From positions 62,001 through 126,000 of the IMG/VR virus record IMGVR_UViG_3300035703_000005: a stretch of 64,000 nt of DNA; one strand, 5' to 3'. A program made the translations under genes and the position numbers. The notes under the pieces were generated by a model that saw nothing but the letters and a program-made list of their open reading frames with translations, made no database searches and was not told the origin of the DNA. Shown one piece after another: positions 41,116 to 47,908 of the stretch (position 1 is the first letter of the stretch; each line of letters opens with the position of its first letter). Source of the DNA: a virus.

Positions 41116-41637
41116 TTAATCTTCAGTTGTTTCTTCTACTTGAATTTCAGATTCTTCTTGTTCTTCAATTTCTTGAACTTCTTCTTTTGCGAGTCCAGGA
41201 GAGGATTCAAGATACGATCTCAACATCCAAACAAATTTTCCATGAGACTCATTTAGATCATCTATAAGATTTGAAGTTGCTCTGGACTTCTGAGCATCAG
41301 CTTCCTCAGCAACTTCAGTAAATAGATCACACAAATCTTGATTTGATTTTAACAGATCTCTTACCATTTTATGGCAATCTGTTGTACTTTGTCCAGTTTT
41401 GACTTTGGAAACTTCTACAATTCTTTCTAAACTATTAAGTGGTTTTACATTTAGAAACCTCATGTGTTCAGAGATACGATCGATCTCCTCAAACATTGTT
41501 TCATACTGATCACCAAAAAGAGTATGAAGTTGTGGAAAATCTTCTCCAATTACATTCCAATGATACGCCCATGTCTTATGAAATAAGACAAATAGGGATG
41601 CTTGTGCATCACTTAGTAGTTTAAAAAGTGTTTCCAT
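41116..41637 (-). CDS. Dps-like ferritin
   Basis: 173 aa. HKTWAYHWNVIGEDFPQLHT followed by LFGDQYETMFEEIDRISEHM contains the Dps ferroxidase pattern (His-Trp-Asn...Asp...Glu...Asp). Four-helix composition; the C-terminal 25 residues are Glu-rich (EEQEESEIQVEETTED). Dps protects DNA from iron/peroxide chemistry. With the diiron protein at 3.9 kb and peroxiredoxin, it adds to the oxidative-stress functions. Confidence 0.82.
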   Translation of the reverse strand: METLFKLLSDAQASLFVLFHKTWAYHWNVIGEDFPQLHTLFGDQYETMFEEIDRISEHMRFLNVKPLNSLERIVEVSKVKTGQSTTDCHKMVRDLLKSNQDLCDLFTEVAEEADAQKSRATSNLIDDLNESHGKFVWMLRSYLESSPGLAKEEVQEIEEQEESEIQVEETTED

Positions 41638-41668: not shown

Positions 41669-41739
41669 GGGCAATATCGGATTCGAACCAATGACCAACT
41701 GCGTGTAAAGCAGCTGCGCTACCGCTGCGCTAATCGCCC
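41669..41739 (-). tRNA. tRNA-Val (UAC)
   Basis: Acceptor GGGCGAT/ATTGCCC, anticodon loop TTTACAC, T-loop TTCGAAT, A73. Confidence 0.95.
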
Positions 41740-41950
41740 GTGGGGGTGGTGAGATTCTGTCATACTCACAATCGGGAAGGTTACACTGACAACGTATTTC
41801 CCAACACTTAGGTTCTTCTTGGTGAGAAGTTCTATACCTTTGATTTCTCAACGATACAGCGGGCACCACCCCTAACCTATTACATTATCCCGTGAGTAAC
41901 CACAAGGATTGTTCTGTCACACCCAGAGAACTCCCGTCGAAGTTCTCAAG
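41740..41950 (-). other. spacer within RNA island
   Basis: About 210 nt without a firm gene. A frame reading leftward from GTG near 41865 (CWEIRCQCNLPDCEYDRISP) looks protein-like but runs into tRNA-Val, so it may be a decayed gene. A hairpin GAGAACT...AGTTCTC lies at about 41918-41950, just upstream of tRNA-Gly. Confidence 0.35.
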
Positions 41951-42031: not shown

Positions 42032-42060
42032 ATTATAGAGTAGTTGAGTATAATTGTCAA
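42032..42060 (-). promoter_or_regulatory. promoter of tRNA-Gly
   Basis: TTGACA (42055-42060), 17-bp spacer, TATAAT (42032-42037): perfect consensus, 10 nt upstream of the tRNA. Confidence 0.85.
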
Positions 42061-42459: not shown

Positions 42460-42465
42460 ATTTGG

Positions 42466-42537
42466 TGGCGGGGGGTGGAATTGAACCACCTACCTGAAGC
42501 TTATGAGACTTCTGTGCAACCGTTACACTTCCCCACT
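42466..42537 (-). tRNA. tRNA-Met-like (CAU), atypical acceptor
   Basis: Anticodon loop CTCATAA with intact D, anticodon and T arms. The acceptor reads AGTGGGG/CCCCGCC, leaving an A1-C72 mismatch, and position 8 is A rather than U. A 1-72 mismatch is an initiator feature, but the anticodon stem lacks the three G-C pairs of initiators. Confidence 0.82.
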
Positions 42538-42540
42538 ATA

Positions 42541-42776
42541 AGGCCGCTTTTCACGGCACCGTAACACTTTCTTTACAGGGCTGTTATCACCCCGTCTCTC
42601 TATACTAGGGCAGTAGTCTTACTGCGAGAGAATGCAACAATGTTGTTTGCGTTTGTTTTTTGTCCCGTCAACAGATACAACCTTACCACCTCGTCGAAAC
42701 CTTGGCAACCCCTAGTTATGGAGTTGTGGGGAGTCGAACCCCAGTCCGAAGCAACAGACTTTGCATCCTCTTGAAC
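42541..42776 (-). ncRNA. ssrA: circularly permuted two-piece tmRNA
   Basis: Transcript order on the minus strand: acceptor piece (TTCGGACTGGGGTTCGACTC then CCCACAACTCCA, ending near 42719), a 6-nt linker (42713-42718), then the coding piece starting GGGGTTGCCAAGGTTTCGAC. GGGGTTG (42706-42712) pairs with CAACTCC (42720-42726) to rebuild the acceptor stem; TTGTATC (42674-42680) pairs with GATGCAA (42761-42767) as P2 between pieces. The tag frame 42600-42650 reads ANNIVAFSRSKTTALV-stop, homologous to the cyanobacterial ANNIV-tag. A CTCTC/GAGAG stem and GGGGTGATAACAGCCC follow. tmRNA rescues stalled ribosomes and tags the nascent protein for proteolysis. Confidence 0.9.
42600..42650 (-). CDS. ssrA: tmRNA proteolysis tag, ANNIVAFSRSKTTALV
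   Basis: Resume codon GCA at 42648-42650, stop TAG at 42600-42602. The first five residues ANNIV match cyanobacterial tags (ANNIVPFARK...VAA), but the tag ends Ala-Leu-Val instead of the usual Ala-Ala that ClpXP recognises. Confidence 0.88.
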   Translation of the reverse strand, partial: ANNIVAFSRSKTTALV

Positions 42777-42783
42777 ATAGTAT

Positions 42784-42812
42784 ATAGTATACTAAAATTA
42801 TTCAGTTGTCAA
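42784..42812 (-). promoter_or_regulatory. promoter of the tmRNA
   Basis: TTGACA (42807-42812), 17-bp spacer, TACTAT (42784-42789). It starts between tRNA-Ser(GGA) and the acceptor piece, giving tmRNA an independent transcript start. Confidence 0.75.
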
Positions 42813-42813
42813 G

Positions 42814-42900
42814 CGGAGAGAGAGGGATTTGAACCCTCGGTGAAGTTACCCCCACACAGACTTTCCAGGTCTGCTCCTTAAGCCACTCGGACACCTCTCC
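42814..42900 (-). tRNA. tRNA-Ser (GGA)
   Basis: Class II; acceptor GGAGAGG paired with TCTCTCC, anticodon loop CTGGAAA, G73. Third Ser isoacceptor. Confidence 0.96.
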
Positions 42901-43086: not shown

Positions 43087-43090
43087 ATGG

Positions 43091-43164
43091 TATCCGTGAG
43101 AGGATTTGAACCTCCAACAAATAGATCCTTAGTCTATTGCCTCTTCCAATTGGGCTACACGGAC
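43091..43164 (-). tRNA. class I tRNA with anticodon AAG (Leu by code)
   Basis: Acceptor GTCCGTG/CACGGAT, anticodon arm ATAGA-CTAAGGA-TCTAT, 5-nt variable loop TTGTT, T-loop TTCAAAT. The anticodon AAG would read CUU (Leu), yet the short variable loop is not Leu-like; identity doubtful. Confidence 0.8.
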
Positions 43165-43167
43165 AAA

Positions 43168-43839
43168 CTATAAGATTCCGAAAAGTTTACATCTTTTACG
43201 AATAGCATTATCAGAAACTCCAAACATTTTACCAATAGAAACTAAAGAATAAGAAGCAAGAAGTTTTTGAAGTTCTTCTTTAGATACTTCAAATTTTCTT
43301 TTTCTTGGAATTGAAATTCTAGGTTTTTTAACCCTTTTTACATTCCTACCAGCAAATGTATCAGTTTGACTATTGCAGTTTGGACATAAAAATCTTAGAT
43401 TTTCTAATCTATTATCATTAGGAATTCCATTTATATGATCTAAAACCATAGATAAAGGATTTCCATTCCATTTAGGTTCCAATCCACAATTGAAGCAAGA
43501 ATAAGAAATAATATTTTCTTGTATTAGTCTTGCCCTAATAACACTCCTAGAAGTGCTACTATTTTCAACAAATAGTATATTATTTGGAATTTTATTTTTA
43601 CTAGGACCAAATTTTTTTCCTTTATTGGAATCAAGTCCTTTTTTTATATGAGAAGTATCAATTTTTTCATATTCTATTCTTCTTTTTAGTGTGTTTATAT
43701 TAGAACCTTGAGAAAATATATTAAGTTTTCTCAAAATCTCAGAATAAGAAGAACTATCAGAAACAATTAATTCTAGTTGTTTTTTTGGAACAGACCATAA
43801 GATACTTCTTTTTTTTCTGGATTTATTTTGATTTGACAT
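43168..43839 (-). CDS. HNH homing endonuclease in tRNA array
   Basis: 223 aa. Central HNH module: CFNCGLEPKWNGNPLSMVLD, HINGIPNDNRLENLRFLCPN, CNSQTDTFAGRN, with the DH, N and CxxC zinc ligands visible. The C-terminus has a helix-turn-helix (EELQKLLASYSLVSIGKMFG, VSDNAIRKRCK) for DNA binding; the N-terminus is basic. Free-standing mobile gene inserted between tRNA genes, with own late promoter. Confidence 0.92.
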   Translation of the reverse strand: MSNQNKSRKKRSILWSVPKKQLELIVSDSSSYSEILRKLNIFSQGSNINTLKRRIEYEKIDTSHIKKGLDSNKGKKFGPSKNKIPNNILFVENSSTSRSVIRARLIQENIISYSCFNCGLEPKWNGNPLSMVLDHINGIPNDNRLENLRFLCPNCNSQTDTFAGRNVKRVKKPRISIPRKRKFEVSKEELQKLLASYSLVSIGKMFGVSDNAIRKRCKLFGIL

Positions 43840-44068: not shown

Positions 44069-44101
44069 ATTTGAACTATCTGGAATTTCCAGATAATTGA
44101 G

Positions 44102-44172
44102 AGCCCAATAACAGAATTGAACTGTTCTCTGCAGTTTACTAAACTGCTGCATCACCACAATGCTTATCGGGC
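44102..44172 (-). tRNA. tRNA-Thr (AGU)
   Basis: Acceptor GCCCGAT/ATTGGGC, anticodon arm GCAGT-TTAGTAA-ACTGC, U73; A at position 8. AGU anticodons are rare in bacteria. Confidence 0.87.
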
Positions 44173-44413: not shown

Positions 44414-44426
44414 ATATCGTAGGTGT

Positions 44427-44509
44427 ATCATTTGAGAGGATTCGAACCTCCATTGCCGCCTCCAAAACGCAAGTGCTATGGCGGAGTGTTACCGTTACAC
44501 TACAAATGA
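44427..44509 (-). tRNA. tRNA-like gene with expanded anticodon loop
   Basis: Perfect acceptor TCATTTG/CAAATGA, U8 A9, D arm GTGT-AACGGTA-ACAC, T arm GGAGG-TTCGAAT-CCTCT. The anticodon stem CCGCC/GGCGG encloses 19 nt (ATAGCACTTGCGTTTTGGA) instead of 7, so the anticodon cannot be assigned. Confidence 0.7.
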
Positions 44510-44511
44510 TA

Positions 44512-45443: not shown

Positions 45444-45534
45444 TGAGAGAGGAGGGAATTGAACCCCCGATGGTTCTTATGTACGTGTTTTACAGACACG
45501 GACTACACATATTGCCGACAGTAGCCACTCTCCC
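45444..45534 (-). tRNA. tRNA-Tyr (GUA)
   Basis: Class II; acceptor GGGAGAG paired with CTCTCTC, anticodon arm CGTGT-CTGTAAA-ACACG, A73. Its first base is the last base of the upstream gene's TAG stop. Confidence 0.95.
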
Positions 45535-45929
45535 TAGATTTTATACTGCAAATAATTTTCACCAAGATTGATTGAGTTTTTATTATCTTTTATGATGTCT
45601 TTGGGAATAAGATACTTATCACCATCAGCAGTTAGTATGAATAACTGGTCATAAAAGATTTCAGTATTGAGTTTATTGACAAAATTAGATTTACTATTTC
45701 CACCAGTAATCCTCAATCCCACTACATATTTTCCACTAGAAGATTTGGAGTTAGTTGTCTTTACTTGTATTTTTTGTAATCCAAGTTCAGGAAACTCAAC
45801 AATCAAATCGTAATCTTGACTATCTGTTAATGGGATAGAAACAGTATATCCAAGACCACAAAAGTGGGCAATACAAATACCCAATCCAACATCACCTTGT
45901 TTCTTGGTGTTTTTGCAGTTATGGAACAT
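45534..45929 (-). CDS. PD-(D/E)XK-type homing endonuclease-like protein
   Basis: 131 aa. KKQGDVGLGICIAHFCGLGY, SQDYDLIVEFPELG then LQKIQVKTTNS give the ordered E/D...D...QxK pattern of restriction-fold homing nucleases such as I-SspI. KYLIPKD and the acidic/hydrophobic C-terminus agree. It is free-standing between tRNA-Lys and tRNA-Tyr, targets probably a tRNA gene, and its stop codon is fused to tRNA-Tyr. Confidence 0.8.
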   Translation of the reverse strand: MFHNCKNTKKQGDVGLGICIAHFCGLGYTVSIPLTDSQDYDLIVEFPELGLQKIQVKTTNSKSSSGKYVVGLRITGGNSKSNFVNKLNTEIFYDQLFILTADGDKYLIPKDIIKDNKNSINLGENYLQYKI

Positions 45930-47343: not shown

Positions 47344-47490
47344 TCACATGTTAGTGCTTAGAATCTCTTCACGAAACTCTTCATAAACCGCACAAGCATT
47401 CAAATAATCTCCCATTTCTGCGAGATAATGAAGTCGGTCAATAACACTATCCTTCAGATCTTCAACGTTGTCAATGAGCTGATGTTCCAT
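47344..47490 (-). CDS. hypothetical protein, 48 aa
   Basis: MEHQLIDNVEDLKDSVIDRL, HYLAEMGDYLNACAVYEEF: a helical peptide with repeat-like hydrophobic spacing. Start overlaps the upstream gene's end by about 20 nt. Confidence 0.55.
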   Translation of the reverse strand: MEHQLIDNVEDLKDSVIDRLHYLAEMGDYLNACAVYEEFREEILSTNM

Positions 47491-47908
47491 GAAAGTAATC
47501 CTTCCTGTAGTAACGACCGAGTACATTGCTATTGTAGTACCGAGGTTCCCCAGTGTCAAGGGCCTCTGTCAGGACATTATTTAGGAACAACTGACGGGTC
47601 TCCTCATAATTCGTTTTACCTACAGTATCGTGTAGAGAAATTATGAATCTTCTGAACTTATCTTTTCCGTATTTCTTAATATCATCTTTGAGTTCTGGAC
47701 AGGATCCGTAATACTTTTTCCAATCAGACTCCTGTTTAGATCTTCGAGTTGCACCCTTTTTCTTTCGGAAGCTCCAGAAATACTTTCTCCCAAAGTAACT
47801 CCGATTATTTTCAAGGCAGTCAATACGATAAACAAAACCAAAATGATCCTGAATATGATCTGACTCAAAAACCTCTCCATTATAAGTCCAAGGGTTTTCA
47901 TAGCTCAT
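47471..47908 (-). CDS. GIY-YIG-like nuclease domain protein
   Basis: 145 aa. FVYRIDCLENNRSYFGRKYF supplies the two short strands (xVYxI and YxGRKY) of a GIY-YIG fold with its Arg; ESDWKKYYGSCPELKDDIKK and NYEETRQLFLNNVL (catalytic-type Glu) follow. Resembles small T4-like endonucleases such as the Seg group. It may be structural-gene linked rather than mobile. Confidence 0.65.
   Translation of the reverse strand: MSYENPWTYNGEVFESDHIQDHFGFVYRIDCLENNRSYFGRKYFWSFRKKKGATRRSKQESDWKKYYGSCPELKDDIKKYGKDKFRRFIISLHDTVGKTNYEETRQLFLNNVLTEALDTGEPRYYNSNVLGRYYRKDYFHGTSAH

Follow-up and report, generated by a model that had tools for sequence, protein, structure and literature searches.

The window (the whole stretch of 64,000 nucleotides that was analysed) has, at about 42543-42777 (-), a tmRNA gene that is complete and circularly permuted, and the tag that it encodes ends in valine, an end characteristic of cyanophages and not of phages in general. 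Judged from its sequence, the locus is almost certainly a real tmRNA of functional type. The reading that we favour, and consider moderately likely, is a working phage two-piece tmRNA that would serve ribosome rescue with attenuated proteolysis.

Identification of the gene and its source

ARAGORN called a permuted tmRNA at 42509-42808 (-) with the tag ANNIVAFSRSKTTALV. When the covariance model for the permuted cyanobacterial tmRNA (Rfam cyano_tmRNA, RF01851) was run over the locus, it matched 42543-42798 at full length (model positions 1-288) with 105.8 bits and an E value of 8.5e-29, the gathering score being 70 bits. Rfam tmRNA_permuted (RF04321) matched the same gene at 78.3 bits, and a scan of the whole 248,835-base IMG/VR contig gave this single RF01851 match. 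A degenerate or chance match has a negligible probability: we ruled out a chance match or pseudogene on the score and E value of the RF01851 match, together with a covariation score above that of 500/500 shuffles.

The same 248,835-base record encodes a T4-type gp23 major capsid protein (E 2.5e-154) and, by its sequence, comes from a T4-like phage. Genes near the tmRNA include 6-phosphogluconate dehydrogenase and transaldolase, and the tmRNA region matches Synechococcus phages. Taken together, these features make a Synechococcus-like cyanobacterium the very probable host. The array that holds the tmRNA gene has about 28 other tRNA genes (ARAGORN). The original prediction, of a phage-encoded permuted tmRNA of cyanobacterial type in a tRNA array, is thus upheld by ARAGORN, RF01851, gp23 and covariation in agreement. 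Its parts, in order along the minus strand, are as follows.

42813-42900 (-): tRNA-Ser (GGA), upstream neighbour (ARAGORN, Rfam)
42784-42812 (-): predicted promoter, TTGACA 42812-42807, 17-nt spacer, TACTAT 42789-42784 (consensus scan, 10/12)
42719-42777 (-): acceptor piece, the tRNA-like 3' half (RF01851 and sequence)
42761-42767 (-): P2 5' strand GATGCAA, partner 42674-42680 (covariation)
42727-42743 (-): T arm TGGGG-TTCGACT-CCCCA (covariation)
42720-42726 (-): acceptor stem 3' strand CAACTCC (7/7 pairs)
42713-42718 (-): linker TAACTA, 6 nt, predicted to be removed in maturation (length comparison)
42543-42712 (-): coding piece, the mRNA-like half, G1 at 42712, 3' end approximate (RF01851 lower bound, ARAGORN)
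42706-42712 (-): acceptor stem 5' strand GGGGTTG, carrying G3 of the alanine identity pair (sequence)
42674-42680 (-): P2 3' strand TTGTATC (covariation)
42661-42673 (-): candidate short hairpin UGUU-GACGG-GACA at the place of the host PK1 region (paired in 17/17 genes)
42600-42650 (-): tag frame ANNIVAFSRSKTTALV, resume codon GCA 42650-42648, stop TAG 42602-42600 (ARAGORN, homologous frames)
42603-42605 (-): last tag codon GTA (Val), where the host end is Ala-Ala (tag comparison)
42596-42630 (-): hairpin spanning the tag-frame end, CUCUC/GAGAG outer and GCAGUA/UACUGC inner (fold of tag tail)
42543-42557 (-): 3' terminal hairpin GCCGTGAAAAGCGGC, no T run after it (last RF01851 helix)
42463-42537 (-): tRNA with CAT anticodon, downstream neighbour (ARAGORN, Rfam)

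The 5' end of the acceptor piece is predicted at about 42777 from the promoter spacing and a conserved TTCAAGAGG start. Its mature 3' end is the discriminator A73 at 42719, CCA not being encoded; this position and 42712, the two mature ends given in the original prediction, coincide with A73 and G1 as read from the sequence. After GGGGTTG the coding piece continues with GGTTTCGACG and then the 3' strand of P2. The tag codons proper occupy 42650-42603 (-), and the end of the terminal hairpin near 42543 falls six bases before the next tRNA.

RNA structure and conservation of the predicted promoter

We aligned 17 related phage genes and scored five helices. Cells forming standard pairs made up 98.4% of the total, against a mean of 88.8% in shuffled controls and 48-58% when the partners were slid by 1-3 columns. 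Ten pairs had changes on both sides, and the covariation score was reached by 0/500 shuffles. Across these 17 genes P2 was paired in 98.3% of cells, with three pairs changed on both sides, and the T arm in 100%, with both-side changes at 4/5 pairs. The rebuilding of acceptor stem and P2 by the permuted gene order, as proposed earlier, is borne out by these data, all seven acceptor pairs (7/7) being formed and the helices covarying.

Alanyl-tRNA synthetase needs a G3:U70 pair and a discriminator A. The third acceptor pair of this gene is G3:U70, the alanine identity element, and A73 is present; the seven acceptor pairs, G3:U70 and A73 are kept in 64/64 viral and 113/113 host genes. The host PK1-region sequence, on the other hand, is absent, with CUGUUGACGGGACAAA in its place. 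Throughout the phage class that includes this gene, the replacement reads CUGUUGACGGRACAAA, which can form a four-pair hairpin in 17/17 genes aligned and at least four pairs in 23/24 class members. Alternatively it may extend P2: RNAalifold favours a longer P2 that uses part of the short hairpin, rather than the hairpin itself.

The predicted tmRNA promoter stands directly after tRNA-Ser. Most related phage genes have TTGACA before the 5' piece, despite differing flanks, together with TACTATATA or, depending on the clade, with CTATAAATA, a sequence similar to the T4 late promoter motif. In one subgroup of relatives the 5' piece abuts a tRNA instead. This conserved arrangement of predicted promoters suggests controlled expression.

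Linker length and expected two-piece maturation

The 6-nt linker had earlier been called remarkably short, with the question of whether the two pieces are cut apart. The description does not hold, since six nucleotides is the commonest length both in picocyanobacterial host genes (64/113) and in viral genes (46/64). Northern blots covering four picocyanobacterial strains showed that Prochlorococcus tmRNA consists of two molecules (PMC1242208). Host linker lengths and these blots rule out the short linker as a sign of uncut pieces; because the linker here equals that of hosts whose tmRNA is found as two molecules, we expect, by analogy, that this precursor too is cut into two RNAs.

The tag ends in valine in most cyanophage copies

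The tag of this gene ends SKTTALV and not in the Ala-Ala of hosts, an end which is a host property and not a criterion of the RF01851 family. Pattern scans of virus and genome collections yielded cyanobacterial-type genes readable by ARAGORN, 113 from picocyanobacterial hosts and 64 from viruses. Host tags, 14 of them different, ended in Ala-Ala in 113/113 cases, whereas 52/64 tags at the viral loci ended in valine. Among 29 different viral tags, 21 ended in valine (LV, AV, TV or SV); the remainder comprised six AA ends and one each of AL and TA. That of phage S-SSM7, ending TA, is a thirtieth. As a check for bias of tag-based patterns, a scan that ignored the tag gave the same picture, with 28 valine and 8 alanine ends.

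Other viral tmRNA calls served as a control, and of their 66 different tags 54 ended in AA and one in V. The valine end is thus a mark of cyanophages more than of phages at large. Fisher p values for it are 8e-6 against hosts and 4e-13 against other phages, both overstated as unique tags are not independent draws. All valine-ending examples come from uncultivated virus contigs. Among cultured phages the Ala-Ala end is retained in S-CAM1 and S-CAM3, the tag of S-SSM7 having TA and that of S-CRM01 AAL as its end, and further searches for isolates with tmRNA queries found no cultured phage with a valine-ending tag.

Evidence for selection on the tag end

We built a tree without the tag tail from 173 alignment columns; with so few columns and phage tmRNAs that appear mosaic, any number of independent changes read from it is uncertain. 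The sampled host genes formed one supported group (98/99), with all phage genes outside. A strongly supported branch had valine ends to either side of it, in two phage clades, and the AU test rejected a single valine clade (p 3.6e-6, for a group named after seeing the data). Two routes to valine can be proposed from the tags: the change of SAPVAA to SAPVAV looks like one substitution, and QTALV may be the Prochlorococcus end QTALVAA minus two alanines.

Last codons among the valine-ending rows were GTT (27), GTA (9) and GTG (1). Positions -3, -4 and -5 had each changed 9-11 times in these rows, and few changes led away from valine at the last position. The RNA context of the valine codon differed by clade: it falls in an internal loop of the tag-end hairpin in this gene and its nearest relatives, and elsewhere in a hairpin loop or a stem. 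Between two of the stem-context loci, L129 and L134, a C-G pair has become U-A and GTG has become GTA, valine being kept, while the partner codon has changed from Ala to Val. Given these differing contexts, we reject the explanation that a shared RNA pairing fixes the valine codon. Because valine ends occur in two clades, a single clade is rejected, synonymous codons vary and RNA contexts differ, the peptide end looks selected, and we consider selection on the tag end in phages likely.

The opposite view is that only ribosome rescue matters: the C-terminus would drift under relaxed selection, degradation of tagged proteins being irrelevant within one infection. This would agree with tag tails that differ greatly in sequence and length (14-31 aa) and with the existence of AA, TA and AL ends. 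Drift, however, predicts many different last residues, and valine ends 21/30 different tags in more than one clade; the synonymous codon changes, the few departures from valine and the L129/L134 pair, in which valine survives a stem change, also speak against it. We hold relaxed selection to be unlikely, though it deserves some weight.

The tree bears equally on the gene's origin. That it was acquired from a host, as originally suggested, is possible; a recent capture is not supported by the tree, with no phage gene within the single sampled host group. The gene might otherwise be a plain copy of a host gene, with host function, kept for dosage and with a tag difference that has no effect. Its tRNA-like determinants are all the same as those of hosts, and its position among the other tRNA genes of the array would fit general translation support. 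A plain copy is nevertheless improbable, given that a valine end occurs in 0/113 host genes and that the phage genes are not close copies of the sampled host genes.

Proposed mechanism

Once loaded with alanine, a tmRNA joins SmpB in entering stalled ribosomes, where it adds its tag, the Ala-Ala end of which is read by ClpXP. In the mechanism that we propose, the gene's own promoter would give a precursor transcript, which host RNase P would cut before G1; host enzymes would also trim the 3' end of the acceptor piece and add CCA to it, and P1 and P2 would keep the two pieces joined. With host alanyl-tRNA synthetase, EF-Tu and SmpB, the molecule could then free ribosomes that stall on broken mRNAs in the course of infection. 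A search of 41 viral records with such genes, this one included and many of them fragments, found no SmpB gene. In most cyanophage copies, including this one, terminal valine replaces the Ala-Ala that ClpXP reads, which would make a weaker degron, the phage keeping ribosome recycling while slowing the destruction of tagged products.

Compared with LVA, tags ending AAV and ASV act more weakly in Synechocystis (PMC3446811) and also in Salmonella, where their degradation is ClpXP-dependent (PMC11003136). From these weaker degrons we propose that the valine-ending cyanophage tag is a weaker degron as well, a step based on engineered AAV and ASV ends where the cyanophage ends are ...ALV or ...TLV. 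By this analogy, the chances that the valine end acts by weakening ClpXP degradation are about even. Roles suggested for viral tmRNA are help for hijacked translation or the tagging and degradation of host proteins (PMC9004378). The original prediction, too, raised the tagging of host proteins; tagging for destruction fits poorly with the changed tag end, on which that prediction had not remarked.

The valine end might instead send tagged products to another protease or receptor, such as a PDZ-domain Deg/HtrA or Ctp protein. Some PDZ domains prefer hydrophobic C-termini, and valine itself appears favoured here, not merely a non-AA end. We judge this retargeting distinctly improbable: a search of 27 records found no phage-encoded ClpP family protease, and AAV and ASV tags depend on ClpXP in Salmonella (PMC11003136). 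Still less probable is a decoy that inhibits host trans-translation through SmpB or ribosome binding, the role suggested for a tmRNA without a tag in mycobacteriophage DS6A. Expression of DS6A-like molecules in E. coli does inhibit tmRNA (PMC4131195, PMC11915505), but the relatives of this gene keep the resume codon, a tag frame with its stop and the hairpin at the tag, none of which a decoy would need.

That cyanophages have repeatedly rewritten the degron to valine, for rescue without rapid destruction or for delivery to a different protease, falls a little short of an even chance. Were rescue with attenuated proteolysis to be true, the virus would have separated the two halves of trans-translation, ribosome release being wanted without fast proteolysis. 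It would show which half of the process a virus needs whose hosts are among the most abundant photosynthetic cells, and it would offer natural graded degrons for cyanobacterial work.

Comparison with known tmRNAs

The two-piece tmRNA of Prochlorococcus, marine Synechococcus and Cyanobium (RF01851; Gaudin et al. 2002) shares with this gene the gene order, G3:U70, A73, unencoded CCA, T arm and P2, a 6-nt linker in many hosts, an ANNIV/ANKIV tag start and a hairpin over the tag end. The host tag ends QxAPVAA, in contrast to SKTTALV here; the phage gene also differs in having CUGUUGACGGGACAAA at the PK1 region and a predicted promoter of its own in a phage tRNA array, in a record that has no SmpB gene.

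Engineered weak ssrA degrons AAV and ASV are alike in that a C-terminal valine replaces alanine; they are artificial, whereas the cyanophage valine end is natural and recurrent. The tmRNAs of mycobacteriophages Bxz1 and Wildcat and of Bacillus phage G, unlike this one, are not permuted. These one-piece tmRNAs are, like it, the products of phage-borne ssrA genes (PMC4131195). The two-piece tmRNA of Methylophilales phage Melnitz and of pelagiphages is likewise permuted and from marine phages, for which ribosome maintenance or protein tagging was proposed, but it is of alphaproteobacterial type and comes with a glutamine riboswitch (PMC9004378).

Phage-borne two-piece tmRNA, cyanophage ones included, is already a published kind. 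A 2021 phage database held 53, of which 50 were marine or aquatic, and a cyanobacterial group shared with phages was drawn in the tmRNA tree (PMC9004378); a 2025 tmRNA database has 79 unique phage sequences (PMC11915505). The text of the former paper does not discuss the tag end (PMC9004378). Literature on phage tmRNA and tags, few subscription papers among it, yielded no discussion of the cyanophage tag end, which is weak evidence of novelty; as far as we searched, the recurrent valine end is undescribed.

Homologous, permuted, phage-borne tmRNAs related to this one occur in Synechococcus phages S-CAM1, S-CAM3, S-CRM01 and S-SSM7 and in Marine virus AG-345-P14, with 77-80% identity over about half of the query in all of these except S-SSM7. 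Their tags end STVAA, SLVAAL, DELVTA or QLATA, none in V, unlike the tag here. The records of the four Synechococcus phages have no tmRNA feature at the locus, and that of AG-345-P14 is without annotation. Hypothetical proteins BOW87_gp053 of S-CAM3 (L125 2497-2637) and SSSM7_025 of S-SSM7 (L316 1485-1703) overlap the permuted tmRNA and are probably miscalls. The S-SSM7 tmRNA (L316 1443-1794) has an unusually long tag of 31 aa, AKSSDTAANNIVAFSRILTREFARTDELVTA.

Nearly identical tags (ANTSDxAANNIVAFSRSTVAA) are found in L085, L307 and L310 on the one hand and L122 and L125 on the other, with two different 5' and PK1-region classes, which suggests recombination inside phage tmRNA genes. Virus contigs L300, L303 and L315 have a host-like tag end (ANKIVRFSRQxAPVAA) with an N-terminal extension AKNI; L315 also carries a Nol-like carbamoyltransferase gene.

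Other features of the tRNA array

A strong match to the manA RNA (RF01745, 109.3 bits) lies at 41739-41946 (-) between tRNA-Gly and tRNA-Val, abutting tRNA-Val; downstream of it, at 41116-41637, is a ferritin-like (Dps-type) gene. Before the manA match, between tRNA-Leu (TAG) and tRNA-Gly, stands a perfect sigma-70 consensus promoter (TTGACA, 17, TATAAT) at 42032-42060 (-). Endonuclease genes, HNH-like (just under the Pfam cut-off), PD-(D/E)XK and GIY-YIG (SegE-like), are in or beside the array:

43168-43839 (-): HNH-like endonuclease gene
45534-45929 (-): PD-(D/E)XK endonuclease gene
47471-47908 (-): GIY-YIG (SegE-like) endonuclease gene

A34 is unusual in bacteria outside tRNA-Arg ACG. ARAGORN reported tRNA-Leu with anticodon AAG at 43088-43164 (-) and tRNA-Thr with anticodon AGT at 44101-44172 (-), and gave a two-base anticodon (gc) for the tRNA at 44425-44510 (-).
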